This document shows positions 1-19,212 of a DNA stretch of 23,833 nt, one piece after another. Numbering within the stretch: position 1 is the stretch's first letter; the number at the start of each line of letters is the position of its first letter. The translations under genes and the position numbers were made by a program. The stretch is from a virus, in the IMG/VR virus record IMGVR_UViG_3300037357_000149, positions 1-23,833 of that record; one strand, 5' to 3'. Below the pieces are notes generated by a model. That model ran no database searches. It was not told the DNA's origin and worked only from the letters and a program-made list of their open reading frames with translations.

Positions 1-3000
1 CGCCGCGATCCGCCGCTCTGCCGCGCGCTGCGCTTTCAAAAAATCCGTCCGAGCCTTCGCATTCGCCGCCGCTCCCACCAACTGCGGTACCGCCAGGTCG
101 GTCACCATCTTCAGCCAGCGATCGCCCTTCACCTCGTACTCCGGGTCTAGCTTCCCGAATCCCGTCGCCGAGCCGATGTTCGCGTACAGGCTGTTCATCT
201 GCCGCACGGCCGCGCCCACGTGCGGCGCAGCGTCCACTTCTTTCGATGCCGGCAGGAACGTCATCCCCGGCTTCGCGTTGCGATCACGCAGCCCCGTCAC
301 ATAGGCTTCATCGCCAGTCACTCCCGCGAACAGCGCCCGCGCGCCTGGTCCCATCACCGGATGCGAGGCCGAGTTCAGTGCGCCCGCCATTGCCGACTCT
401 CGAATCTGGCCCGCGTTCCCGCCGGCGCGCCACGTGTTGTACGCGCCATCGACGCCCAGCGCCCGCACGCCGCGTCCCACCATCGGATTGAAGAACGCAA
501 AGTTGATGAAGCCGTCCTCCGGCCCGTGCCCCCACAACTGCGCGCCGAGTTTCGAACGCCGGTCTTCAGGCTTCGCCCGGATCTGCAGCAGCTTCCCCTT
601 CTTGTCTTCCCACGGCCACTCGCCGCGATACAGCTTGTGAACGATCGCCCACGCCAGCACCAGGCCGCCGGCGCCGCGCGTCAGCCACTGCGCGATTCTC
701 GCTCCCGTTCCGCCGCCCGGCAGCGGTCCGCTGCCCAGCAGCGAGTGGATCCCATTCTTCACGCCCGTCGATCCCGCCGTGAAAAACGGAGCGATGCCGG
801 TTCCCTTCACCGCCCGTTCGATCGTGCTCTGTAGCGCTGTCGTGTAGTTGGGCAGCCAGGTCCCGAATTTGTACATCTCCGCCGGCGTCGCCTCCGGATA
901 CGCTGCCTTCGCCAACCGGTACAGCGCCAGGCGCGTCCGCACGTCGATGCCCTGGGGCCCGTACAGCAGCGGACTGAAGCTGGTCCGGCTCAGCTCCGCG
1001 CCCGTCGACTCCGCCACCTTGCGGCTGAAAGTCTCGGCTCCATAGGCTGGCGGAATCCAGCCGCCTTTGGCCATCTCCTCGATGTCCGCCGCGCTTTCGG
1101 CCGACGTCGTGTCCGTTCCGATCACTTGCATCATCGCCGCGAATTTACCGGCCAGCGGAATCGCTCCCAGCTTGCTCAGCGCATCCTTCCCCGCAAACGG
1201 CGTCGCCACCTGAAGCGACCCCACCAGCGAGTAGCTATGCATCACCAACTCCGTCGGCCCCGAGAGCGCGATCCGGTTCACCACCGCCAGCGCGCGCTTG
1301 ATCATCCCCGGCTCGGTCAGGTCCTTCGCCTTCAGGATCGGATCCACTTCGCGCTGCAGCCACTGCGGCATGATGCCGCCCTCGGCCGGCAGATATTCGT
1401 TTTTTCCGCCTTTCACCGTCTCCCGGCCGCCGCGCGTCTCCACCGGTACCGCTTTGAACGGCACTCCATTCACCACCATCGTGTCCGGGCGCCGCTCATT
1501 GCTCTCGAAGCGATGGAACAACCCCTCGTCCTCCAGCGTCTGCAAAAATGCTGCCTTGTTGTTCGCCCGGAACGACAGCACCACTCGCTCCCGCAGCCCC
1601 TTCATCGACGTGTCGTATTCGCCCAGCCCCGTCGCGAACTGGTTCGCGAAATTCTCCGGCTTCTTGTACGGCCGGTTCATTCCGATGGTCTGCTGCGCCA
1701 GTTGCGCCTTCTCGATCGGCACCAGCGGGTAGTAGCGATTCAGCGGCCCCAGTGCGTCCGAGAAGACGCCTTCGTTGCGGGCGTGGCTCTCGTTCAGCGG
1801 CTTCTCGATCAGTCGGCCATAAGCGCGATCCGCCGCGGCGAAGTTGGGATGATAGCGGACCGCGTCGAACTCATCGGGCGTCATTACGTGCGCCGTGGAG
1901 TCCCGTGCCTGCTCGAACGTTCGCTTCAGGAAATCGCGAAGCGCGTCCCACTTCCCGCCTTTGCCCGTCTCTGCGTTGGCGCGCAGCGCCGTCGCCGTCT
2001 GCGCTGCATCCTGCGGGACATCGCCCTTTTCCTCGATGTCGCGCAGCAGGTCCATCCAGCCGCCCTCGAGTTTTTGCTCCAGCTCCGCCGGCGATGCCGC
2101 GCTCGCCTGCGCCGCGAAATTGCCCCACCGCTGGCGGATGCCCTGCAGCCGGCTTTCCATGTACGCCTTCCGCAGGTCCGCCCACTTCGGACCCTCCGGC
2201 CCCAGCGCCCTCTCGATCTGCGGAACCGCCGCGTGGATCATCGCCGAGGCCTGCGCGTTGCTGGCCGCCAACCGCACGGCCGCTTCATGCGCCGCCGGCG
2301 ACGCCTCTTCTAACTGCGACAGATTGCGGATGAACTTGTCTTTAAATTTTCCGGTGCCGAACTTCGCCGATCCCGGAAACCGCTCGGTGCCCAGCGTCCC
2401 GGTCAGCCCGCTGTAATTCAGCCGCGGCTCGGCCAGTCCCAGTTTTTCGGTCGCGTACCGGTCCAGGTCCTCCAGATTCACCGCGCCGCGTTCGCCGCCG
2501 CGCGCGTCCGGATCGATTCCCCGCGCCTTCAGCAGCTCTCGCTGTGCCGGTGTGTACTTCGACCGCGACCGCGGCGTCTCCGTTGCCTTGATGGTAGACG
2601 GCACTCGCAACTCCGCTCCATGCTCCGCGTCCTTCGCCTGCGCCTTCAGCTCATTCCGGATCTGGTAGCCCGCCGTGCGCGCATGCGCCTCGCTGAGACC
2701 CGTGTGGTCCATCACAAATTGGAGATAGGCCGCGTCCCGCTTCGAGCGCGTCTTCTGCGCGGTGATGTACGCTGCTTTGTCGAGGTCGCTGTCGAACGCA
2801 ACTGTGAACTGCTTGGGCCCGTAACCGTACCGCGGCTCCGCGGCCGCCAGCTCCCTCGGAAGAGTCGGCTTGCGGGCTAAGCCGTCTGCCGGGGATTTCT
2901 CCGTATTGTGAAATTGCCGGAAGATCGGTCCGTGCGGCCCGGTTAGTTCGGCTCCGGCGCCGGCCCCTGGCCGCTGGCCGCTGACCCCTGGCTGCTGCTG

Positions 3001-5130
3001 TCGATCGAGTTCCCCTCCGCCGGCTTCACCTGTCCCGCCGCCGCCATCGCCTTGAGGTCGCTCAACAGTTCCTTGGCCCGTGCCGGTGAGGCGAGCTGCC
3101 TGCCCCAGGAGTTCTTGTTTGATTTGCCCATACGCCCGTTCCTTGACCTTAGCCGAATCCTCGCCCGTCGCCAGGCCGGCCGCCGCGACATCCAGCGCGT
3201 CGTTCACCGGTCCCGCCGTCGTCGACAGCTTCTGATACAGCGCCTGCGCCTGCCCCATCGAGCTGGCCACCTGGGCGTTCTCGCCGGCCTTGATCACATT
3301 GCCCGACTCGCCCATCCGCGTCGCCGCCCCTTCATTCCCGACCGCTTTGAAAAGGCGCTGCTCTTGTAGCATGCGCCGCTGCACGTAGTCCGAAACCTCG
3401 GATTTCTCCGGGATCAGGCTTCGCGTCATCTCCTGCGACCCGAACAGATTCTCCTGCGTCTCGGTCTGCTTCGGCGCCGCGTTGGTCAGCCGGATCATCT
3501 CGCCCACCTGGTCGTTGGTGAGCCGCTTTCCGTTCTGCTCCCGCTGATTCAGTAGATCCACCAGCGCCCGCTGATCCTCCGGGCTCTGCACCCCGGCGCC
3601 GATCACCGCCGCGCGCTCCACCGGCAGCTCGCCCGACACCACCTGGCTGAACAAATGCGGATCGAGATTGGCCAGCGCCAGCCCCTGTTGAGCCTTCTGC
3701 CCCTTCAGCGAAACGCCTTCCCGCTGCAGCGCCGCTTCGTCGAGCCCCGAATCGCGAAACACCTTGGCGGCGTCCACCGCGTCGCCGCGCCCTTCCGCGA
3801 TGTTGATCAGCGCTCCCTTGGTCCGCGCCTCCGTGGCATCGGCCGCATTCAGATACCGAGCCGTCACGTCCGGCTCGCCGGTGCGCTGCGCCAGCTCCAG
3901 CCGGTGATGCCCGTTCACCACGTACGTCTCGCCGTCGGCCGGATCTTTCCACACGCTCAGAATCCCGGACTTCTCCGGGTCGAACTTCGTGACCTGCTTG
4001 AATTCGTCCCCCACCCCGCCCTGCCCCACGTTCGATTTGAACTGGAACTGCGGCGCGTCGACCTTGATCTGGTCGGTGGGAATTTGCGCCACATCCCCCG
4101 GCTCCGAGGGCCACGCAGGCTCCGCCTGTTTTGCTGCCGACGCCTCGACGCCTGGCGTCGGAGCTACGTCGCGTACTGCATTCTGCTGTACAGGCCCCGG
4201 CGCGGGCGCTTCCTTCTCCGCCATGAAACGGTCGAAGGCCTCCGGCTGCCCCGCTTGCGGCTCGCCCTTCGCCTGCATGAACTGATCGAAATCCGAGGCC
4301 TCGGCTTTCACATCGATCGGTTCTCGAACTGGCGGCAGCGCCGCCGTCGGCTGCGGCTGCGCCTCCGGAGGAATCACTTCCCCCTCCAGCGGCGAGCCGA
4401 ACCGCGCGCCCGGCTTGAACGGAGCCATCGCGGCCTTCCCCGCGTTCACCAGGTCCTTCACCGTCCAGCCGGCCGCCGCAACCCCGGCCGTGTCTCCCGC
4501 CAGGCGCGCATATTCCTCCGGCACACCCGCTTCGCGCAACGCCGCCTGCGTGCCCTTCTGCGCCAGCATCGCCGTAACCACCGCTCTCGCGGCCACGATC
4601 GGATTCGCCGCCGCCGCGCCCACCATCAGCGGCTGAGCGGCAGTCAATGCGCCCTCGATCGTCTGCGCGGCCCCTCCCGCTTTCGAGCGCATTCCTGGCT
4701 CGGCCATTTGCTCGACGCCCTCGGCCATCTGGCCGCCGCCTACCATCGGCGCGTCCAGCGGTCCACGTTCCAGCCGGTAATGGGAGACGGCGCCCGTCCT
4801 GGGATTTTGAAAGCCGCCGCGCGGATTGTCGGCGTAGTGACCGGCCAGGTCCTCGCCGGTCCACGCGTTCCTCGGCAACGGCGCGGCAGGATACGGAGGC
4901 AGTCCCGTCTTCTCCGCTCCCACCGGAACCGCCGGCGGAGCGTACTGATCCACCAGCGCCTGCGCGCGGTCCGTCGCGTTCTGCACCGCTTGCCCCGGAG
5001 TCGGAAGCGTGTCCGCCGCCGTCTTCGGCTTGGCCTGCATGAACGCGTCGAAGTCCGGAGCCGGCGTCGCAGCCCGATCGTTCATGAACGCGTCGAACTG
5101 GTCTCCCAGCGGTTGAGCATTCGAGCCCAC
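1..5130 (-). CDS. Giant phage polyvalent/ejection protein with ParB-type domain (3' end off left edge)
   Basis: An uninterrupted frame of 1710 codons runs from GTG at 5130 to base 1 with no stop. GTG is the first possible start after an in-frame TAA, which is also the stop of the upstream gene, 3 nt away. The next in-frame ATG is codon 16. Visible parts: FDxFM motifs at residues 12-16, 27-31, 281-285 and 299-303; an Ala-rich hydrophobic stretch near 158-195; a ParB-type domain at about 350-470 with FQFKSNVG, VWKDPADG, NGHHRLEL (406-413) and NIAEGRGDAVDAAKVFRD (443-460); an FxxDLDKAxYITA segment near 770-810; a short hydrophobic segment near 1488-1498. ParB-type domains with this NGHHRLEL/NIAEGRG pattern occur in phage polyvalent proteins carried into the host with the DNA. 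Its place last in the structural operon matches T7 gp16 or other ejection proteins. Around 3110-2943 the coding signal moves to another frame, so this may be two genes or a damaged one. Confidence 0.75.
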   Translation of the reverse strand, partial: MGSNAQPLGDQFDAFMNDRAATPAPDFDAFMQAKPKTAADTLPTPGQAVQNATDRAQALVDQYAPPAVPVGAEKTGLPPYPAAPLPRNAWTGEDLAGHYADNPRGGFQNPRTGAVSHYRLERGPLDAPMVGGGQMAEGVEQMAEPGMRSKAGGAAQTIEGALTAAQPLMVGAAAANPIVAARAVVTAMLAQKGTQAALREAGVPEEYARLAGDTAGVAAAGWTVKDLVNAGKAAMAPFKPGARFGSPLEGEVIPPEAQPQPTAALPPVREPIDVKAEASDFDQFMQAKGEPQAGQPEAFDRFMAEKEAPAPGPVQQNAVRDVAPTPGVEASAAKQAEPAWPSEPGDVAQIPTDQIKVDAPQFQFKSNVGQGGVGDEFKQVTKFDPEKSGILSVWKDPADGETYVVNGHHRLELAQRTGEPDVTARYLNAADATEARTKGALINIAEGRGDAVDAAKVFRDSGLDEAALQREGVSLKGQKAQQGLALANLDPHLFSQVVSGELPVERAAVIGAGVQSPEDQRALVDLLNQREQNGKRLTNDQVGEMIRLTNAAPKQTETQENLFGSQEMTRSLIPEKSEVSDYVQRRMLQEQRLFKAVGNEGAATRMGESGNVIKAGENAQVASSMGQAQALYQKLSTTAGPVNDALDVAAAGLATGEDSAKVKERAYGQIKQELLGQAARLTGTGQGTVERPQGDGGGGTGEAGGGELDRQQQPGVSGQRPGAGAGAELTGPHGPIFRQFHNTEKSPADGLARKPTLPRELAAAEPRYGYGPKQFTVAFDSDLDKAAYITAQKTRSKRDAAYLQFVMDHTGLSEAHARTAGYQIRNELKAQAKDAEHGAELRVPSTIKATETPRSRSKYTPAQRELLKARGIDPDARGGERGAVNLEDLDRYATEKLGLAEPRLNYSGLTGTLGTERFPGSAKFGTGKFKDKFIRNLSQLEEASPAAHEAAVRLAASNAQASAMIHAAVPQIERALGPEGPKWADLRKAYMESRLQGIRQRWGNFAAQASAASPAELEQKLEGGWMDLLRDIEEKGDVPQDAAQTATALRANAETGKGGKWDALRDFLKRTFEQARDSTAHVMTPDEFDAVRYHPNFAAADRAYGRLIEKPLNESHARNEGVFSDALGPLNRYYPLVPIEKAQLAQQTIGMNRPYKKPENFANQFATGLGEYDTSMKGLRERVVLSFRANNKAAFLQTLEDEGLFHRFESNERRPDTMVVNGVPFKAVPVETRGGRETVKGGKNEYLPAEGGIMPQWLQREVDPILKAKDLTEPGMIKRALAVVNRIALSGPTELVMHSYSLVGSLQVATPFAGKDALSKLGAIPLAGKFAAMMQVIGTDTTSAESAADIEEMAKGGWIPPAYGAETFSRKVAESTGAELSRTSFSPLLYGPQGIDVRTRLALYRLAKAAYPEATPAEMYKFGTWLPNYTTALQSTIERAVKGTGIAPFFTAGSTGVKNGIHSLLGSGPLPGGGTGARIAQWLTRGAGGLVLAWAIVHKLYRGEWPWEDKKGKLLQIRAKPEDRRSKLGAQLWGHGPEDGFINFAFFNPMVGRGVRALGVDGAYNTWRAGGNAGQIRESAMAGALNSASHPVMGPGARALFAGVTGDEAYVTGLRDRNAKPGMTFLPASKEVDAAPHVGAAVRQMNSLYANIGSATGFGKLDPEYEVKGDRWLKMVTDLAVPQLVGAAANAKARTDFLKAQRAAERRIAA
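2943..3108 (-). other. Segment where coding signal leaves the giant ORF's frame
   Basis: Between about 3108 and 2943 the frame of the giant ORF reads as low-quality Gly/Arg-rich sequence with mixed third positions. The frame shifted by +1 reads as good protein with GC-rich third positions: residues like ASPARAKELLSDLKAMAAAG, then a Ser/Gly/Pro-rich tail ending in TAA at 2945-2943. After that stop the giant frame again carries clear coding signal, but it has no ATG, GTG or TTG until about 2718, inside a domain that already looks coding. Either two compensating indels or assembly errors lie here, or two genes meet here and the second has lost its start. Confidence 0.55.
2966..2995 (-). repeat. 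Heptamer element, in-gene copy
   Basis: Read on the + strand this is CCTGGCC GCTGGCC GCTGACC CCTGGCT plus GC: four 7-mers plus two bases, the same 30-nt layout as the four intergenic copies at 7697, 18465, 20170 and 23316. It sits inside the giant ORF, about 20 nt upstream (in the minus sense) of the out-of-frame TAA at 2943. Thirty bases is a multiple of three, so an insertion would not break a frame. Its presence suggests an ancestral gene junction here. Confidence 0.7.
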
Positions 5131-7743: not shown

Positions 7744-10689
7744 TCACGCAGTGACCTGCGCGGTCGGAACCAGCACCGGCTCCTCCACGCTCCACGCAAA
7801 CAAACACACGTGGTCGAACGCGAACGGCGTCACGTACAAAATCCCCGCGTACACCGCCGACAGATACTCCGCCTGCCACGGACACCCGCCGTTGAACACC
7901 GGAAACAGGTACCGCACCGAATCGAGCGGCCAGCTCAACACCGTCGGAAACGCGATCGCGATGGCCGCCAGGTCCAGACTCCGGGTACCGCTTCCGAAAT
8001 CCAGCGCCTCCATCTTGAAGCGATCCAGACCGCTCGTTACTTTCGCCGTCCACACCGGCGGCAGGTTCACCGCGAAGTTCAGCCGCCCACCTAAGCTCTC
8101 TCTTCCTATCGGCACCGGATAATTCACGTCGTAAGGCCACAGCAGCTCCAGCAGTACGTCGGGATACGCCGCGCGAAGCGCCGCTCCAATGCTGTTTACG
8201 TGCGCCGCCAGGCGCGCCTGCAGGAACGCCACGTCCGCGCCACCGTTCACCGTCGGATCGTCGGTGGGTTCGACAAACGTGTACAGTGGACGCCCCAGCG
8301 CGGCCTCCGCCGCCGCATTCGTTTCGTTGTCGTAATACGCCATCCCGCCGGTCAGATTCGCTTCCGTGCCCGTCGGCCGCGATAAGCTTCCGTAAGGAAT
8401 CGCCCCGCCCGTCCCGCTCGCCGGCGGAGTCTCGGTGCCCGTCAGCACGCTCGTGGATCCGGCGCCGTGCGCGTCGCTGAAAAACCACCACAGAAATTCG
8501 CCGAACTGGAACTCGGGTGTCAGCCCCGCCGCCACCGCCAGCGCCGCGGTGTCCAAATAGACCCTGGTCTGGTACGCCAAAAACTCTGAAGCGCCCGGCG
8601 CGCATTGCGTCGAGTTCAAGGTTCCGAATCCCGTCGCCGTCTCCACCACATAGCCGTCCGCGTATCGCGCGGCCCACACATGCCCGTTCACCGGATCGTC
8701 CGGCGGATTCACCAGCTCCATCGAGTACGCCGTGGTCACACTCAGCCCCGCCGCCGCGGCCAGCGTATAGAAATCCGTGAACCAGGCCGCCGCCGCCGCG
8801 TTCAACGTCGGCGTCTGCGTCGGATCGATGTTCCAGTTCCCCTCCACGCCTCCCGTTGCGAGCGATCCCCCGAACGTCAGCTCGACGATGGTCCCGTCGA
8901 CCTCTTCTTTGAACACCGTCAGCGGGAACTGGTATTGCGCCGACAGCGCCCGCGCCGTCAGCGTCAGCACGCTTCCCTCTGCCGAAGCCCACACGCCCAC
9001 CGAGTTCGCATTCACCCGGTACATCAACCGCGCAGCGAGCGACGTCGCGTCGTCGGTAGTCCAGACCGTGATTCCGATGGTGTTCGCCGAAACCGCCGAA
9101 TCTCCAAACGCCAGAAACACCTGGTCGCCGTCCGCTACCGGCGAGCCGCCCACATAGGTCATCTGCGAAAAATCCACCGAGGCCGACGGGAACGTCGCGC
9201 CCGCCAGCGTTTTCTGCATCCACCAGAACACGCCCGCATACAGATCGATCGGTCCCTGATATCCGAGCTGCAACAGCATCCACAGCAGGCGCTCCGGCGG
9301 CAGCCGGTACCCGTGGTCCGTGTCGTAGTCGATTGCCGGCGACCTGTTCAGCCACGGCCCCGCCGGCGCCGGAACGTCGGACGTAACCGCCGCTTCGATG
9401 AAATCGAAGTACACCCCGCCCGTCCCCGTCGACGCCGCGCTGGGCGCCCGCACCGTCAAGGTCACGGTGTGCGCCCCAGGCGCCAAAGAAGTCCGCAGGA
9501 CTCTCCGCGCCACCACCTGCGGATCGGTATTCAAATAGCAATCGAGCAGCGTCTCCGCATCGCCGTCCACCGAAACGCCCCACTGCATCCGGTCGATGTA
9601 CAGGGCCGTCCCCAGGTACAGGTCGTGCGTGAGCTGGCAATTGTAGGTCATGGTGACCGAATCGCCCACCGTCGACGCCTGGTTCGCAAACCCCTGCGAG
9701 TAGAATCCCGCCTCGCTCGCCCAGCTCTGCCCGGTGTACACGCACGCCCAGTCCGTTTCCTCCATCCGCACCGAGTTCGGTCCCGCCACCTGCAGCGGCC
9801 GCACATTGTCCGGATCCGTCACCGTCCAATTTGAAAAGGTCGCCGACCACTCGACATCCACGAACGCCGACCCGTCGGGCAGTCGAGGCGCGAACGTCAT
9901 CCAGATCTGCCGGATGCTTTCCTGTGGACCGCTGAACGTCGCTCCCGTCGTCAGATTGTTCCCCGTCAGCTCCGTGAAATCGACGGTCACGTGAAGCGTC
10001 CGGTCCGTCGGCGCGCCCGAGAATTCGGCCGTTGCCGGATCGAAGGTCACGTCCGAGGCCTGCGACTCGCAATAGACGTGCGCCAGGTTCCCCGACGGGC
10101 TGTTCGCCACCGTGGTGATGAGGATCGCGGCGCCCGATGCCGTGGCCGTCAGCGTACTCCCCGTGTTGATCGCCGCCGCCAGGCCTGCCGCGATCACCTC
10201 CGCCGTGTCGCCCGTCGCCGTGGTGTAGCTGTAGGCATTGTTCTCCTGCCAGATCACCAGGTAATTTCCGCCCACGGAATCGGTGCCCTCCACCGTTACC
10301 GTCAGCGTCGGCGCCGGGTACGCCGAGGCGTCGCTCGTGACCGGCTGCACCTGCAATGCGTCTCCGGCCGCGGTGATCATGTCCACATAGAGCCAATCGA
10401 TCGACGGGTACCAGGTGTCGTCGAAGGTCATCAGGTTGTGGAAGGCGATGTCGAACTCCAGCACTATTTCGGTGAAGTCGAAGTCCGGCAGATACTTCAC
10501 CAGCGGATGCCCCCAGAAGTCGTCCGCATCGAACAGCGTCAGCACCGTGAAGTCGTCGGTTGCCCGGAACACGCCGCTCACCGTGAACCCGGTCTCCGTC
10601 GCCTGCGTGATCGCCGCCGCGGCCCCGAACCCGTCGAACCCACGTAGGCTGATGGTCCGGTTCGGCTGCAATTTATTTATCTGTTCCAT
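7744..10689 (-). CDS. Large tail/receptor-binding candidate with glycosidase-like barrel, 981 aa
   Basis: ATG at 10689 follows a purine-rich GCGGAAAG; the ORF ends in TGA at 7744. The N-terminal half (about 1-440) is beta-rich. A stretch near 125-215 resembles virion beta domains, and one near 280-435 ends in GGVYFDFIEAAV, a pattern like a carbohydrate-binding jelly roll. From about 450 the sequence changes to alternating helices and strands with many aromatics: LPPERLLWMLLQLGYQG (463-479), IDLYAGVFWW (481-490), FQFGEFLWWFFSD (727-739), ALGRPLYTFVEP (797-808), ELLWPYDVNYP (848-858). This looks like a glycoside-hydrolase-type TIM barrel with Glu731 as a possible acid and a beta insertion at about 500-615. 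It is likely the protein that touches the host envelope polysaccharide. The barrel assignment is inference; a structural tail protein without enzymatic activity is the alternative. Confidence 0.85.
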   Translation of the reverse strand: MEQINKLQPNRTISLRGFDGFGAAAAITQATETGFTVSGVFRATDDFTVLTLFDADDFWGHPLVKYLPDFDFTEIVLEFDIAFHNLMTFDDTWYPSIDWLYVDMITAAGDALQVQPVTSDASAYPAPTLTVTVEGTDSVGGNYLVIWQENNAYSYTTATGDTAEVIAAGLAAAINTGSTLTATASGAAILITTVANSPSGNLAHVYCESQASDVTFDPATAEFSGAPTDRTLHVTVDFTELTGNNLTTGATFSGPQESIRQIWMTFAPRLPDGSAFVDVEWSATFSNWTVTDPDNVRPLQVAGPNSVRMEETDWACVYTGQSWASEAGFYSQGFANQASTVGDSVTMTYNCQLTHDLYLGTALYIDRMQWGVSVDGDAETLLDCYLNTDPQVVARRVLRTSLAPGAHTVTLTVRAPSAASTGTGGVYFDFIEAAVTSDVPAPAGPWLNRSPAIDYDTDHGYRLPPERLLWMLLQLGYQGPIDLYAGVFWWMQKTLAGATFPSASVDFSQMTYVGGSPVADGDQVFLAFGDSAVSANTIGITVWTTDDATSLAARLMYRVNANSVGVWASAEGSVLTLTARALSAQYQFPLTVFKEEVDGTIVELTFGGSLATGGVEGNWNIDPTQTPTLNAAAAAWFTDFYTLAAAAGLSVTTAYSMELVNPPDDPVNGHVWAARYADGYVVETATGFGTLNSTQCAPGASEFLAYQTRVYLDTAALAVAAGLTPEFQFGEFLWWFFSDAHGAGSTSVLTGTETPPASGTGGAIPYGSLSRPTGTEANLTGGMAYYDNETNAAAEAALGRPLYTFVEPTDDPTVNGGADVAFLQARLAAHVNSIGAALRAAYPDVLLELLWPYDVNYPVPIGRESLGGRLNFAVNLPPVWTAKVTSGLDRFKMEALDFGSGTRSLDLAAIAIAFPTVLSWPLDSVRYLFPVFNGGCPWQAEYLSAVYAGILYVTPFAFDHVCLFAWSVEEPVLVPTAQVTA

Positions 10690-10817: not shown

Positions 10818-10821
10818 CTAG
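10726..10821 (+). CDS. Possible antisense small membrane peptide, about 31 aa (doubtful)
   Basis: A + strand frame with stop TAG at 10819-10821 reads as a convincing single membrane segment: basic LFLKRLALSLTLLALISLF near the end and GC-rich third positions. The only usual start is GTG at 10726, with no good ribosome binding site. The frame stays open upstream to a TAG at 10645, and that part also reads protein-like (FPLVAALCGKVLRDNPYLAL), but without an ATG. It is the only + strand candidate in an otherwise minus-strand window and fills almost exactly the gap between two genes, meeting the 162-aa gene tail to tail. It may be a remnant of an inserted gene or chance. Confidence 0.2.
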   Translation: MLRDNPYLALFLKRLALSLTLLALISLFTHC

Positions 10822-11306
10822 AAGCGCAAGAGGACGCTGAGATCCGACCCGGGAAACGTCGTCCCAACCTGCGTGATGTTCAGCGTGATTACCGCGTTCG
10901 CCGTGATCGCGCCGCCCAGCGATCCCGTAATCACCACCACCGCCGAGCTTCCCGCCGGCAGCGTCACCGACGTATAGGTCGACCCCGCCACCAGAACGTT
11001 CACCACCACCGGATTCCCTTGCGGAGGCTGCTTCAGCATCGCCAGCAGTCCCACCGGCGTCGCCGCCGTTTCGAGCGCAATCAGCGCCGCCGCGTTGGTC
11101 TGCACTCCCAGCGTCCCCGGCACCGAGAGGGCCACCTGGCCGCCGCTCGACGAGCTGGTCGACACCGGGCTCTTTGCCGCGGCCGCCGCCGGCGTCATCC
11201 CCGCCGCGATGGTTCGGAAACGATCGTTCAGCGCCTGCAGCGCCTGGCCCGAAACCCCCGGCAATGCCGGCAGCTCCAGCCACGTCGATGCGTTCGGATT
11301 CGGCAT
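10818..11306 (-). CDS. Beta-rich virion-associated protein, 162 aa
   Basis: ATG at 11306 directly follows the TAA of the 45-aa ORF (TAAATG), so translation is probably coupled. The N-terminus contains a WLELPALPGVSGQALQALN pattern, a short helical anchor of the kind seen in tail-attached proteins. A Ser-rich linker follows at about 45-60, and the C-terminal 70 residues form alternating hydrophobic beta strands (VVVNVLVAG, SVTLPAGSSAVVVITG). Lying between the nozzle-like protein and the 981-aa receptor-binding candidate, it may join tail and fibre. No family is recognised. Confidence 0.7.
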   Translation of the reverse strand: MPNPNASTWLELPALPGVSGQALQALNDRFRTIAAGMTPAAAAAKSPVSTSSSSGGQVALSVPGTLGVQTNAAALIALETAATPVGLLAMLKQPPQGNPVVVNVLVAGSTYTSVTLPAGSSAVVVITGSLGGAITANAVITLNITQVGTTFPGSDLSVLLRF

Positions 11307-11444
11307 TTAGTTCAACCCGACCTTGATGCTCATCTCCAAGCCGCTTCCCAGATCCCAAACCACCATCCAGTAGTTCCGCGCGCAGTTCACGTGACAGCCC
11401 GGATAACCGTGCCGCTGCGACCGAAACTCGAGCATCCGTCTCAT
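11307..11444 (-). CDS. Coupled micro-ORF, 45 aa, Cys- and Trp-containing
   Basis: The start ATG (11444-11442) overlaps the TGA of the 1393-aa gene as ATGA, and its TAA is followed at once by the ATG of the 162-aa gene. Such end-to-end packing favours real translation by re-initiation. The peptide is basic at its N-terminus (MRRMLEFRSQRHG), has two cysteines in GCHVNCARN and an aromatic stretch YWMVVWDLG, then a short strand-like end. No family is recognised. The two cysteines spaced by three residues could bind metal or form a disulphide. It could also act only as a coupling leader for the 162-aa gene. Confidence 0.6.
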   Translation of the reverse strand: MRRMLEFRSQRHGYPGCHVNCARNYWMVVWDLGSGLEMSIKVGLN

Positions 11445-14400
11445 GACGATCCCATCGGGACGTCGACCCACGTCCAGTCCGTCGGCGTCTCCTCTACCGG
11501 AAACACCGCCCAGTCCCATTGCTGGCCCGTCGGCAACACCGAAAACTGCATCCAGGTGAACTCCGGAGGCGTCGCTTCCACCGGCAAATCCGCCCAAGTC
11601 CACTCCGCCGCCGTCGGTGCCACCGGCAACGCCACCCATGCCGCTAGGCTCTCCGATTTCTCCACCGGAAATTCCGCCCAGTCCCACGTCGACGTCGCCG
11701 ACTCGCCCACCGTCTTGGTCCAGCCCCGCACCATGTACAGCCGCGCCGAATTCGCGCCGCCGCCGATCTCCACGCGCGCGATCTTGCCGCGTATGTTCCC
11801 AGGCAGCCGCAGCCGCAGCGCCTGCCGCCGCCCATTCGTCGACAGCACCGTCTGATAGCGAGCCGCCGAAATGTAACCCGGCTGGTCGGTGTACAGCGTC
11901 AGCGGCACGCCCGTGCCGTCCGTCTGGATGTCCACCTCCAGGTACTTGAAGATTTTCACGCGCTCGCTTCCGAAGTCCTGGTCGAGCGATCGATAAATGT
12001 CATTCTGGCCCGCGGAAATGTATCGCCCCAGGATGCGCTTCGACAGCTGCCCCTGGTAGAGCCGGAAGGCCTGCGTGCTCGATACCGTCACTTTGATCAG
12101 CCGCCCGTGCGTGTTCGCCGGCAGCACCATCGTCACCCATCGCCGCCCGAAACCCGTGGTCGAGATCACCTGCGTGTAGCGCACCGTCAGCGTCTCACCC
12201 GGCAAATCGGTCCACACCGTAACGCTGCATGCCCCGTCCGCATCCATCTCAAAGCGGAGCTGATCGAACACCTTATCCTGCGGCTGACCCAGATCCAGCG
12301 GCGAAGAGTCCCACACCGCGCCCGCGGCCGCCTCGTACGCTTCCACGTACGTGCCCACCGCCCTATACTCCACTCGCGCCCCGAACAGCTTGTAAGCCGA
12401 GGTCCCCGCGATCATCACTTGCATCAGCTTCCCGTACAGGTAGTTGTCCGGCACCGCGCCCTGCGGCAGCGGAATCTGGAACGTCCTGCGCCCCGATCCC
12501 GTCGTGTCGATTACCTGGCTCAATTGAGCCGCCAGCGAGTTCTGCGGCAAGTCCGTCAGCAGCGTCAGCGTCACTGGACCCATCGTGTCCAGCTCCACTT
12601 CGAGCGTCCGGAATTGCTTCACCATCGACGGTGCGATCGCCAGCGGAGTCGAATCGTAAACCGACGCTCCCGTCGCCGCGTCCGTGTCCACATACACCCC
12701 GATCGCGCGCACATGCAGCGCCGCCGCATACAGCCGGAACGCACTCGTCCCGCTGATCACCAGTTGCCACAGCCGTGCATCCAGCTCCGGAGCTTGCCCC
12801 GCCGCCGTCAGCGGAATATTTACCTTCCGACGCCCCGGCGTCGTGAGTGTCGTGTCGACCGTCGTAGTGAACCGCAGCGTCATGGTCCCATGCACGTCGC
12901 CGTACACCTTCACCGTCACCGCCCCGCTGGTCTCGATGTCCAGCTGCAGCTCCCGCGCGTCCTTCACTTTCGAAACGCCGAAGTCCATCTCGCGCGAATC
13001 GTACACCGCCCCGCCGGCCGCTTCGTATGCTTCGAGGTAGACCCCGATCGGCAAAATCTCGAGTCTGGCGCCGTACAGAATGTACGTCGAGGTGCTCCCG
13101 ATCCGCAGTTGGAAAAGCCGCCCCTCCACCGCCGCCGCGTTCAGCGGCTGCCCCGGCACGCTCATCGGCAAGGTGGCCCGGAAAATCTGCCGCCCCTGCA
13201 TCGACGGCCCCGTGCTCTGCGGCACCACCACCGTGAACCGGATCTCCATCTCCTCGCCCGGCAAGTCCGTCATCAGGTACGCGGTCACCGTCGACCCGCG
13301 CGTTTCGATGTCCAGCTCCAGCGTCCTCGCCCGCTTGATAGGGTTCTCATGCAGGCTGATCAGCATCCCCTTCGGGATATGCGTGATGTGGCTGCTGAAA
13401 TCGTGCTCCTGCGAATCCCACAGGTACCCCGCCGACGCCTCGTAATCCTCCACGTACACGCCGATGGTGCGCATCAGCAGCCGCGCCCCGTACAGCCGGA
13501 AATTGTTGGCCGACTCGATCGACAGCCGCAGCAGGCGCCCTTCATAAGTGGTTGGCACTCCGTCGTAGGTGAACGGCAGTTGAAAATTCCTCCGACCGTT
13601 GCTCTCCGCGATCGGCAATTCTGCCTGGACCGCCAACTGGTTCCCCGGCAGATCCGTCGACACCTGCGCCGTCGCCACTCCGTCCGAGGTGTCGATGTCC
13701 AGCTCCAGCTCGCGCACCTGCTTCACTTTGTTCGACCCGAGGTCCAGCGGGATGGTGTTCAGCAGCGTCGCCAGGCGCGCTTCGAGATAGTAGTACAGCG
13801 TGATCGAGTGGATCAGCACTTCGTTCAGCGCCGAGCATTCCAGGCGCACTGAAATGCTGCGCGCCGTCACGCCTTCGTTGTCCTCGCCGCCCAGCGCGAA
13901 TTGCGCCGACTGCCGTCCCATTCCCAGCCCCGTCAGTGTTCCCACCGCGCCATCGTACGGACTCCCCGCCGCCGCGTTGAAGTACGTCAGCACCGTCACG
14001 TTGTCGCCCGGTTGCGCCTCGAATTCGATCACCAGACTCGTATAAACTTTGTCGGTGTCCCAAGCGCCCTGGTTGTAGTAAGCCGACTGGAAGGCCAGAT
14101 CGATCGCCGTACCGAAATCCGTAGTTCCCTGGTCGATCACCACCATCCCGCAGTTGTCCTGGTTGACCCAGAAGGCCCCCCAGAAATCCTGCGTGTTCAC
14201 CGGGTAGAACATCGCGCTCCACGAGGTGGGAGTGAAAGCGTCGAAGAAGCTCGCTCTCCCCCAGCGGTCGTAAGCGATGTGATACAGCAGCGTGTTCGAC
14301 GGCGTCGCGCTGCCCACGTCCGGGTATGCGATGTAAACGATCCCGTTCACCAGCGCCATGGCGATCGTCGCTCGCGAAGCCAGCTCAATCGGGTTGATGC

Positions 14401-15622
14401 TGACGCCCGGCGCGATGGTGGTGTACACTCCCTGGAAAATCGGATCCAGCCGCGGGCTGATCTTGGTCAGCGTGTCCATGTCGAAACTGAACACGCCATC
14501 CGGACTCACTCCGTAATCCGTGCCGCCGCCATTCACCACCGCCATCGGCCCGATCAGGCCCACCGTCGCCTTGGTCTTCTCCAACGTCCCCGTATCCGGA
14601 TCGCCGATCAGCCGCCAGATCGACCGCTCTTTGTAGATGATGGCCAGGCGCGTGTGCACCGTGATGTTGAGGATCGCCTCGCCATCGTCGCCCACGTCCA
14701 CCCATTGCCCGTTATCCGGATCGGCCGAGCCTGGGAAAAACGCCGGCTCATCCGGCCGCGTCCACCACATCCGATTGATGTTCGTCGCGCTCGACCATGC
14801 CAAAATTCTGCTGAAGTACGGGCCCACGATTCCGCTCGCCGGCGGAGGCGGGTCCTGCTGCGTCGGAGGCGTCACCCCGTTCAGCGTCGCTTGCAGATCG
14901 CTCAGGTTGTCGTTGACGTCGGTGGTCACGTTATCGTTGATCGCCAGCACCAGGTAGGCCTGCCCCAGCGTTCCGCCGGTGCGATACAAATTCCGCCCCG
15001 TGGTCCCCCCCGGCCCTGTGACTATTTGCAGATTCGCCGACTGATTCAACATCGGGAGCGGATTGCCCAGCGCGTCAAATCCCCCATAGGAAGCCGTGCT
15101 CGCCGGGCTCAGATTGCTCTCATTCCCACCCACCAGGAAGCTGATGTACCAGTTGTACACGCCGGTGAGGTTCCCGTTCGCCTCGTACCCTTCGTACGTC
15201 GGCGCCGTCTGCGGCGCCGTGACGCCCCACTGCCCGAAGGTGGTCCCGTCGTCCGCGCCCTGCACCCCGCGATTCATCACCCACATGAACCCCTGCATGG
15301 CCACGAAGAAGAACGGATTGCCGTCGCCCGCGTCGGTGATGTCGACGCTGCCGTTGCGAAACAGCGAGGGGCCGGCCCCGATGTACATCGTCGATCCGAA
15401 CCGCCCGAAGCCGTTGTACGGCCCCGCCAGGCTGCCCACCCCGCCGATGTCCAGCGGGTCCGACGTGTTCACCGCGACCCCGCGCCGCGATCGCAGCAGC
15501 CCCTGCTGATCCACCCGCCAGTTGCTCAGCTCGAGGCAGTCCCCTTCGGGAATCTTGTCCCCGGGCGCCAGCAGGTTCAGGCTGCCCGCGAGAATCTGAT
15601 GGGACTCCAGTTTGTAGCTCAT
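11441..15622 (-). CDS. Tail nozzle/propeller-like protein with six repeated domains, 1393 aa
   Basis: ATG at 15622 overlaps the methyltransferase TGA as ATGA. Residues 1-610 have the look of phage tail-nozzle or DNA-stabilisation beta-propellers (T7 gp12 or P22 gp10 type): ELSNWRVDQQGLLRSRRGV (31-49), NLYRTGG (211-217), INRMWWTRPDEPAFFPGS (282-299), ERSIWRLIGDP (332-342), GVSPDGVFSFD (371-381), HIAYDRWGRASFF (448-460). Residues about 618-1306 hold six tandem domains of roughly 100-140 residues. Shared marks are ExxDFG/LDLG, LELDIET, TDLPG, GRRxFxxPL, GRLxxLxIxGTSxxRLYGARL and IGVYVExYEAxxG. The C-terminal 80 residues are six Trp-centred repeats. Family nozzles are usually about 500-800 aa, so the repeats roughly double the length. 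They probably project from the tail and may bind host or fibre proteins (inference). Confidence 0.85.
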   Translation of the reverse strand: MSYKLESHQILAGSLNLLAPGDKIPEGDCLELSNWRVDQQGLLRSRRGVAVNTSDPLDIGGVGSLAGPYNGFGRFGSTMYIGAGPSLFRNGSVDITDAGDGNPFFFVAMQGFMWVMNRGVQGADDGTTFGQWGVTAPQTAPTYEGYEANGNLTGVYNWYISFLVGGNESNLSPASTASYGGFDALGNPLPMLNQSANLQIVTGPGGTTGRNLYRTGGTLGQAYLVLAINDNVTTDVNDNLSDLQATLNGVTPPTQQDPPPPASGIVGPYFSRILAWSSATNINRMWWTRPDEPAFFPGSADPDNGQWVDVGDDGEAILNITVHTRLAIIYKERSIWRLIGDPDTGTLEKTKATVGLIGPMAVVNGGGTDYGVSPDGVFSFDMDTLTKISPRLDPIFQGVYTTIAPGVSINPIELASRATIAMALVNGIVYIAYPDVGSATPSNTLLYHIAYDRWGRASFFDAFTPTSWSAMFYPVNTQDFWGAFWVNQDNCGMVVIDQGTTDFGTAIDLAFQSAYYNQGAWDTDKVYTSLVIEFEAQPGDNVTVLTYFNAAAGSPYDGAVGTLTGLGMGRQSAQFALGGEDNEGVTARSISVRLECSALNEVLIHSITLYYYLEARLATLLNTIPLDLGSNKVKQVRELELDIDTSDGVATAQVSTDLPGNQLAVQAELPIAESNGRRNFQLPFTYDGVPTTYEGRLLRLSIESANNFRLYGARLLMRTIGVYVEDYEASAGYLWDSQEHDFSSHITHIPKGMLISLHENPIKRARTLELDIETRGSTVTAYLMTDLPGEEMEIRFTVVVPQSTGPSMQGRQIFRATLPMSVPGQPLNAAAVEGRLFQLRIGSTSTYILYGARLEILPIGVYLEAYEAAGGAVYDSREMDFGVSKVKDARELQLDIETSGAVTVKVYGDVHGTMTLRFTTTVDTTLTTPGRRKVNIPLTAAGQAPELDARLWQLVISGTSAFRLYAAALHVRAIGVYVDTDAATGASVYDSTPLAIAPSMVKQFRTLEVELDTMGPVTLTLLTDLPQNSLAAQLSQVIDTTGSGRRTFQIPLPQGAVPDNYLYGKLMQVMIAGTSAYKLFGARVEYRAVGTYVEAYEAAAGAVWDSSPLDLGQPQDKVFDQLRFEMDADGACSVTVWTDLPGETLTVRYTQVISTTGFGRRWVTMVLPANTHGRLIKVTVSSTQAFRLYQGQLSKRILGRYISAGQNDIYRSLDQDFGSERVKIFKYLEVDIQTDGTGVPLTLYTDQPGYISAARYQTVLSTNGRRQALRLRLPGNIRGKIARVEIGGGANSARLYMVRGWTKTVGESATSTWDWAEFPVEKSESLAAWVALPVAPTAAEWTWADLPVEATPPEFTWMQFSVLPTGQQWDWAVFPVEETPTDWTWVDVPMGSS
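11453..11692 (-). repeat. Six 14-residue tryptophan repeats at the nozzle C-terminus
   Basis: Tryptophans at residues 1315, 1329, 1343, 1357, 1371 and 1385 are spaced exactly 14 apart. The consensus is WxWAxxPVExTPxx (for example WTWADLPVEATPPE). This is a 42-nt period at the DNA level, with synonymous drift between copies. Confidence 0.9.
11705..13771 (-). repeat. Six tandem ~115-residue domains in the nozzle-like protein
   Basis: Approximate units in protein residues: 618-732, 733-871, 872-985, 986-1101, 1102-1206 and 1207-1306. Each has LxLDIxT near the start, a D-x-PG turn, GRRxF, then GxLxxLxIxxxxxxRLYGA and GVYVExYEAxxGxxxDS. The second copy carries a roughly 20-residue insertion. The copies are clearly divergent, so the expansion is old. 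Confidence 0.85.
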
Positions 15623-16362
15623 GCCGCGAGAATCCTTCGCGCGGCGATTTCGCAGTTACGCCGGTCGAGCTCGATACCGACCCCGCGCCGCTTCTGCTTC
15701 ACCGCGGCCACTAGCGTCGTGCCGCTCCCGGCGAAAGGATCGAGCACCGTCGCCCCTTCCGGAACGCACTGCACCAGCTGCTCCATCAGCCGCGTCGGCT
15801 TGCCCGTCAGGTGGTGCTTGTCACTTTGCAGCACCGGGATCGTGAAGCTGCCCGGCCACGGACCGCCGTGCGTCGCAATTTTGCAGCGCCCGTTCGTGCC
15901 CCACAGCACGTACTCGCACTGATGACGGAAGTAACCCTTGTGCGGCGCGCGCGCTGCGCCCGTCTTGTCCCAGCTGACCAGGCCGCGCCAGAGCCACCCG
16001 CCGCCCTGGATCGCATCCGACGCGGTAGGCAGCTGCCGCCAGTCCGAGAACATCAGGATGTAGCCGCGATCGGCAGTCAAACCCCGGCAGTCCGAGAGCC
16101 ACAGGTTGCACCACCGCGCCCAGCTCCGCGCGTCGCGATTATCGCCGCTGAAGGTGCTCCGCCGTGCCTTCGTTCCTGAGTGCTTGTATTTTTTGACGGG
16201 ATCTCCCATGCGATCGCCGCGCGTGAAGCCGCCGCTCGAATACGGTGGGTCCGTGATCACGGCGTCGACGGGAAGGCCGCCCAGCTCGCCGGCCACGCGC
16301 AGCACGTCGCCACAGTACAGCGTGATGCCGCGGCCCCGGAAGAACGGCTGCGGCTTATTCAT
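15619..16362 (-). CDS. Orphan beta-class DNA methyltransferase, 247 aa
   Basis: It probably transfers a methyl group from S-adenosylmethionine to adenine N6 (or cytosine N4) in DNA. Catalytic motif IV DPPY is at residues 38-41, preceded by DAVIT. Motif I, DPFAGSGTT, lies near the C-terminus at 208-216, followed by GIELD (229-233). HLTGKPTRLMEQLV (184-197) sits before motif I as in the family. Motif IV before motif I defines the beta order. The length is normal for a complete stand-alone enzyme with a small recognition region around 45-75. No restriction endonuclease is adjacent. It overlaps the upstream adaptor gene by 8 nt and the downstream nozzle gene by 4 nt, so it is translated within the virion operon. 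Likely roles are protecting phage DNA from host restriction or marking it for packaging (inference). Confidence 0.93.
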   Translation of the reverse strand: MNKPQPFFRGRGITLYCGDVLRVAGELGGLPVDAVITDPPYSSGGFTRGDRMGDPVKKYKHSGTKARRSTFSGDNRDARSWARWCNLWLSDCRGLTADRGYILMFSDWRQLPTASDAIQGGGWLWRGLVSWDKTGAARAPHKGYFRHQCEYVLWGTNGRCKIATHGGPWPGSFTIPVLQSDKHHLTGKPTRLMEQLVQCVPEGATVLDPFAGSGTTLVAAVKQKRRGVGIELDRRNCEIAARRILAA

Positions 16363-18501: not shown

Positions 18502-19212
18502 TCAACGCAGCATGATCAGTTTCGACCGGTCGAACAGCTCCATCTCGAACGGCTCTTTGTCGTACCCGCTGCCGATATTCCGCGCCCGCACGTAATTGCC
18601 GTAGGCCTGCGCCCCGTCCAGAAAGCGGTTGAAATAAGTCAGCACCTTCTGGAATTCCTGGCCGCCTTCCTTCATCCGCAGCCGGTACACCGCGTAGTCC
18701 ACCAGGTCCGGATGATGTTCCTCCGGAATTTGCGGCACGTCCGTGTCGCTCACCAGCGGCACCGGTGCCTGCGCGTAAGTGATGTTGATGGCCAGCTCTT
18801 CTTCCACCTGCGGGTACACGACCATGAAGTCGAACCCCAGCGCCGCGTACCGCAGCGGAGCCGTAGCCGTCGTCGTCTGCCATCCCGAATCGAACAGGTC
18901 CAGGTCCTGTATCCGCGTCGGCCGCACCCGCGTCCCGGTCAGCAGAGTCACCCGCAACGGCAGCAGCCAATCTGGATAACTAGACCGCATGTGATAAAAG
19001 GGCGTCGTCACGTCCACTCCGTAGGCCGGCAGTGTGAACGTCGCCGTAGTCTCCAGCGCCAGGGTCAGCAGCACGAAAAAACGCTGTGCCTCATTCAGCG
19101 CAGCCGTCACTTCGCCGCCGGCTCCGTAGTACACCGCCGACGGAGCCGTGTCGCCGGCATCGATTTCGTCCAACCGCTCCAGCGTGCGATTGCTCATGTC
19201 CTCCAGGTTCAC
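18502..19212 (-). CDS. Second head-tail adaptor-like protein, 236 aa (231 from the ATG)
   Basis: Two starts are possible. GTG at 19212 has GGTGA about 6 nt upstream; ATG at 19197 has GGAGG, but only 2 nt away. I give the longer form. The sequence follows the adaptor pattern: N-terminal helices (TLERLDEIDAGD, ALNEAQRFFVLLTLALE), central strands with LPLRVTLLTGTRVRPTRIQDLDLFDSGWQ, a strand pair MVVYPQVEEELAINITYAQAP, and C-terminal helices VDYAVYRLRMKEGGQEF and LDGAQAYGNYVRARN. It shares this layout with the 228-aa and 292-aa proteins, although direct identity looks low. Probable role: part of the ring joining the portal to the tail. The gap to the upstream gene is 52 nt. Confidence 0.7.
   Translation of the reverse strand: MNLEDMSNRTLERLDEIDAGDTAPSAVYYGAGGEVTAALNEAQRFFVLLTLALETTATFTLPAYGVDVTTPFYHMRSSYPDWLLPLRVTLLTGTRVRPTRIQDLDLFDSGWQTTTATAPLRYAALGFDFMVVYPQVEEELAINITYAQAPVPLVSDTDVPQIPEEHHPDLVDYAVYRLRMKEGGQEFQKVLTYFNRFLDGAQAYGNYVRARNIGSGYDKEPFEMELFDRSKLIMLR

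Follow-up and report, generated by a model that had tools for sequence, protein, structure and literature searches.

The viral contig that forms the window, the whole stretch of 23,833 nucleotides analysed, is incomplete, and its main genes all lie on the minus strand. It carries a gene (11441..15622, minus strand) for a tail nozzle-type protein of 1393 amino acids (P0001), in which a β-propeller region is followed by six sandwich domains and a Trp-rich C-terminal arm. The propeller region (aa 278-458; 14249..14791, minus strand) matches PHROG 3287 (E=3.6e-12), a family into which the tail nozzle gp17 of SU10, a protein of known structure (PMC9509320), also falls (E=8e-116) and which 17/22 relatives match. 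Judging by this common PHROG membership, the 1393-aa protein is an SU10-like, nozzle-type tail protein; SU10 gp17 alone gave no significant match to the profile of the whole family, the link running through PHROG 3287.

The sandwich domains, of ~110 aa each, were located by an HMM built from the window protein itself and are predicted to be all-β (AF2). They are D1 (aa 623-736; 13415..13756; domain HMM E=1e-40), D2 (aa 755-875; 12998..13360), D3 (aa 876-990; 12653..12997), D4 (aa 991-1105; 12308..12652), D5 (aa 1106-1205; 12008..12307) and D6 (aa 1212-1309; 11696..11989), all on the minus strand. A short segment (aa 839-878; 12989-13108, minus strand) weakly matches PHROG 6534; this family of 122-aa phage proteins, whose function is unknown, may represent the sandwich domain as a protein of its own.

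Upstream of the nozzle gene lies the gene of an SU10-type head-tail adaptor (18502..19212, minus strand; PF24175, 62.6 bits against a cutoff of 27). The gene order 151-aa, 292-aa, adaptor, 451-aa, 228-aa, nozzle ... GNAT is broadly kept among relatives, some loci being without some of the genes. An N6/N4 DNA methylase gene (15619-16362, minus strand) has a 4-base overlap with the start codon of the nozzle gene; since 0 matches to it were found among the 28 related loci checked, it appears to have been inserted into the tail operon recently. Downstream of the nozzle gene, and kept only in some loci, are the genes for a 162-aa protein (10818-11306, minus strand) and a non-contractile tail sheath-like protein (7744..10689, minus strand; PF23845, 57 bits, cutoff 27), in which the TIM-barrel domain of the family (PF23845/PF23844) was matched. 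Homologues of the PF23845 protein in L007, L013 and L015 are found on contigs with tape-measure-like genes and are preceded by a 1264-1512-aa protein; the sheath name may be unsuited to them. The C-terminal half of the 162-aa protein has a VGTTFPGSDL motif and resembles the end of 1200-1500-aa fibre-like proteins that other contigs encode upstream of their sheath homologue; from this resemblance it looks like a mobile tip module. The idea of a Trp motif common to the N-terminus of the 162-aa protein (ASTWLELPALPG) and the arm was dropped, because the gene is missing in many arm-bearing relatives. An ORF of at least 1710 aa (1-5130, minus strand) runs off the contig end; the matching place in L002 is taken by a 2134-aa ORF, which suggests a large virion or ejection protein.

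The 1393-aa protein has no match among the cultured phages in the collection or among PDB sequences. About 40 relatives were found in IMG/VR and four in the bacterial genome collection. All four of the latter are in Bryobacterales (Acidobacteriota) MAGs, hence the hosts are probably Acidobacteria, with the proviso that the binning of viral contigs can mislead. We regard the arm-bearing proteins as tail-tip proteins of soil phages.

The C-terminal arm

The arm comprises the final 81 residues of the protein and consists of six units of 14 residues, the last having only 11: u1 (WDWAEFPVEKSESL; 11645..11686), u2 (AAWVALPVAPTAAE; 11603..11644), u3 (WTWADLPVEATPPE; 11561..11602), u4 (FTWMQFSVLPTGQQ; 11519..11560), u5 (WDWAVFPVEETPTD; 11477..11518) and u6 (WTWVDVPMGSS; 11444..11476), all on the minus strand. 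A preliminary description of this DNA had pointed out, at the end of a tail protein, six Trp residues with an exact period of 14, and the positions (W1315, W1329, W1343, W1357, W1371 and W1385) were confirmed. W1301, on the final strand of D6, keeps the phase as well, which extends the run to 7. Runs of equally spaced Trp never exceeded 4 in 5000 shuffles of the whole protein, and among 20000 shuffles of the last 100 aa a run of 6 occurred in 6 and a run of 7 in 0. The consensus first given, WxWAxxPVExTPxx, holds for the phased W (6/6 units) and is otherwise looser: at the first aromatic position of W-x-W, u4 has F, u2 has A and the remaining four have W. Nor is the exact spacing kept everywhere, because the step between units in relatives, mostly 14, is 15 at u5-u6 and up to 14+9 at u4-u5.

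At the DNA level no tandem repeat is detectable in the array of the window, which argues that the units are old in this lineage. Between phages, orthologous units resemble each other more closely (54%) than the units within one protein do (29%); therefore the units of the window lineage appear to be individually kept. The unit-by-unit expansion postulated earlier is borne out in relatives, where 42-nt DNA repeats were found in the arms of L053, L047 and L073.

An AF2 run on aa 616-1393 with 31 aligned sequences resulted in a model with a mean pLDDT of 86 (arm mostly 84-92) and a pTM of 0.57, as against a pLDDT of 41 when the single sequence was used without alignment. Each unit is predicted to form one strand of 4-5 residues (aa 1314-1318, 1328-1331, 1342-1345, 1356-1359, 1370-1373 and 1384-1387), the phased Trp being the second residue of the strand. 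The extended form suggested earlier for the arm is the likely one. An extended 14-mer spans ~46 Å, about the length of one sandwich domain. A Foldseek search with the 31-sequence model returned no close structure, only generic β-sandwich proteins with TM <0.2.

The repeat was described as an unnamed one, and so it stands. The arm of the window has no Pfam or PHROG match at E up to 10, the arms of two relatives yielded weak, chance-level matches only in these collections, and the best hit of a PDB profile search with the arm had E=0.61; an arm-only alignment is too variable for scanning collections. No description of the arm was found in the open literature, which is weak evidence of absence.

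Unit number and domain number

In relatives, the domains were counted by HMM, the length of the arm was measured from the end of the last domain, and the units were segmented by eye; the sole adjustment concerned L064, where the HMM split D1 into two pieces that were counted as one. Across 37 members in which the nozzle protein is encoded by a single gene, arm length equals 14.0 (13.97) × domains + 7.5 (r=0.98). The correlation is retained in 34 phylogenetic contrasts on a tree of the N-terminal region (r=0.97, slope 13.6), in 20 of which the domain number changes, and the domain architecture changed at least 8 times on this tree; paired sign tests on the tree comprised 2-3 pairs each, too few for significance. 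Counting copies in relatives, a check proposed in the preliminary description, gave from 2 to 8 units. Units and domains number 2/2 in L125, L129 and L132; 3/3 in L036-L043, L086, L103, L123, L127 and L135; 4/4 in L033, L034, L064, L066, L068, L077, L075 and L094; 6/6 in the window and 11 others; and 8/8 in L073. Hence, in single-gene members the number of arm units equals the number of domains.

The domains and the arm are apart in the gene, therefore each change in number needs two DNA events. L073 carries a D4 array that is recent at the DNA level (342 nt, 94% matches) and, elsewhere in the gene, an arm array of 42 nt x3. The separate places of the two arrays imply separate events that were kept in step.

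Not only the number but also the type of the units follows the domains. D1-D6 served as references for typing the domains of the shorter proteins, and u1-u6 profiles (leave-one-out accuracy 67/72) for typing their units. In D1-D5-D6 proteins the combination u1-u2-u6 ranks top of 20 in 8/8 scored, and D1-D2-D5-D6 proteins have u1-u2-u5-u6, an arrangement compatible with either direction of pairing. In L073 both D4 and u3 are tripled; the reverse register ranks 1/1287 and the parallel register 12, while copy-by-copy pairing within the triplication is uninformative. The D1-D2-D3-D6 class deviates: of 15 combinations, u3-u4-u5-u6 comes first, and u1-u4-u5-u6, which the rule in its simple form predicts, has ranks 3-5. 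In these proteins the last domain starts D4-like (WDSTPLDLG) and continues with a D6-like body, and the first unit is u3/u1-like, so its type apparently goes with the strand at which the last domain begins; only if this domain is taken as a D4/D6 hybrid is the misfit to the reverse register accounted for. A parallel register (u1 on D1) was rejected as the poorer fit wherever the two directions differ. As judged from these profiles, unit identity tracks domain identity in reverse order, the putative partners being u1-D6, u2-D5, u3-D4, u4-D3, u5-D2 and u6-D1.

Split-gene relatives

In five relatives (L046, L047, L049, L053 and L130) the nozzle gene is in three pieces: one domain stands at the end of the big protein, a free domain of ~110 aa has a gene of its own, and a third domain is found together with the arm on a small protein. 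In L047 and L049 an unrelated ORF of 218 aa lies between the nozzle pieces. The arms of the five have 5, 6, 6, 8 and 6 units, respectively, against three recognisable encoded domains, and their inner units, which hardly differ from one another in most of these arms, are 58-82% alike compared to 33% in six-unit single-gene arms. A strict rule of one unit per domain therefore failed as a prediction for these relatives, the unit number exceeding that of the encoded domains. Two readings are left: several copies of the free domain are used, one for each unit, or the rule does not apply to these relatives. It is conceivable, though we consider it doubtful, that the arm is a molecular ruler which in split-gene relatives sets the copy number of the free domain stacked at the tail tip, one copy per unit.

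Discussion

We propose, with a probability of roughly 0.7, that the arm folds back along the stack of sandwich domains and, by giving each domain one strand, acts as a splint or zipper. Past the last sandwich domain the chain would turn back toward the propeller, running along the stack of its own chain or that of the neighbouring subunit of the ring, and each 14-residue unit would give one short β-strand and its Trp to one domain. The pairing would be reversed, from u1 on D6 to u6 on D1, and the strands would stiffen or lock the row of domains. Direct contact between unit and domain, placement in cis or in trans and the splint role are inferred from the tracking of domains by units and from the AF2 model, in which the predicted arm strands could pair with adjacent units instead. 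In SU10 the row of four nozzle domains is L-shaped at first and straightens in the course of infection (PMC9509320); by analogy, the brace could hold an SU10-like row of domains straight or locked until triggered.

The same correlation is expected if the arm is a fixed-length tether along the stack, held by its last unit alone in the neighbourhood of D1 or the propeller, with the inner units as spacers. Arm length would then scale with domain number as well, and the last unit is indeed among the best conserved and is found in all types. A tether, however, does not call for the phased aromatics that are retained in nearly all units, nor for a unit type that tracks the domain type, nor for the strand that AF2 predicts in every unit, and we consider it unlikely.

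In SU10 short-fibre docking, three Trp residues of a nozzle loop (Trp839, Trp847 and Trp857) form a quasi-threefold star that holds the fibre trimer (PMC9509320). The arm could likewise be a docking strip for trimeric fibres: the SU10 nozzle, which uses three Trp in such a dock, is also a member of PHROG 3287, and three or six units would suit one or two trimers. Arms of 2, 4 and 8 units exist as well, the spacing is 14 in the arm versus 8 and 10 in SU10, and the arm is C-terminal while the SU10 dock is in a propeller loop. Moreover, the genes downstream vary while the arm persists, and a dock leaves the match of units and domains in number and type unexplained, all of which makes this explanation quite improbable.

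A Trp-rich surface binding glycan, lipid or the sheath, which an aromatic-rich arm at the tail tip might suggest, is very improbable, as it does not predict the unit:domain rule, the arm has no family match, and most arm-bearing relatives lack the sheath-like and 162-aa genes. Two suggestions of the preliminary description are weakened by the same evidence: binding of another virion protein as the main role of the arm, given that neither the sheath-like protein, which the arm does not require, nor the 162-aa protein can be the partner when their genes are so often missing, and binding of glycan or lipid, which is unsupported because it leaves the tracking of domain number by unit number unexplained.

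A fold-back arm of the kind proposed here from sequence comparison and a predicted model would count as a novel structural device of phage tails. If our reading is right, it implies a countable rule of architecture, by which each extra domain needs one extra, distant 14-residue strand in the same chain, and it would show how phages can lengthen or shorten the tail tip yet keep its rigidity. It would then also represent a natural design principle for the bracing of tandem domains, and the length of the tail tip of uncultured soil phages could be read from the arm units.

Comparison with known systems

The window protein and the SU10 nozzle have in common the homology of the propeller region, a row of Ig-like or sandwich domains and a nearby gene for an SU10-type adaptor. 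SU10 has its four nozzle domains inserted between blades 2 and 3 of the propeller (PMC9509320), whereas in the window protein the extra domains (aa 623-1309) come after the propeller match; the C-terminal arm is present on the window nozzle and SU10 gp17 is without one. The SU10/T7-type nozzle is a hexameric ring on a dodecameric adaptor; in the window the adaptor gene (PF24175) is present. At the tail tip of crAss001, the muzzle protein gp44 is likewise a propeller protein of the nozzle type with Ig-like domains, two of them inserted in the propeller, and it has a crass fold (PMC10172136); the parts of that account available to us describe no repeat arm.

Repeated Trp-bearing segments that are offered to protein partners on a nozzle protein are shared by the arm and the SU10 dock loop, the latter having three Trp at spacings of 8 and 10 in a propeller loop and the former 2-8 units at a spacing of 14, in a C-terminal position and in a number tied to the domains. 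Tape measure proteins contain 11-residue W/F repeats with a period of 11 or 11-11-18 (PMC3271669) and resemble the arm in that Trp units of fixed period are tied in number to a structural length in the tail (PMC3271669). Those repeats operate inside the tail tube of long-tailed phages, while the arm is made of predicted period-14 strands on the nozzle. The Trp star of SU10 and the W/F repeats of tape measure proteins are the nearest ideas to the arm, which differs from both in spacing, place and number.
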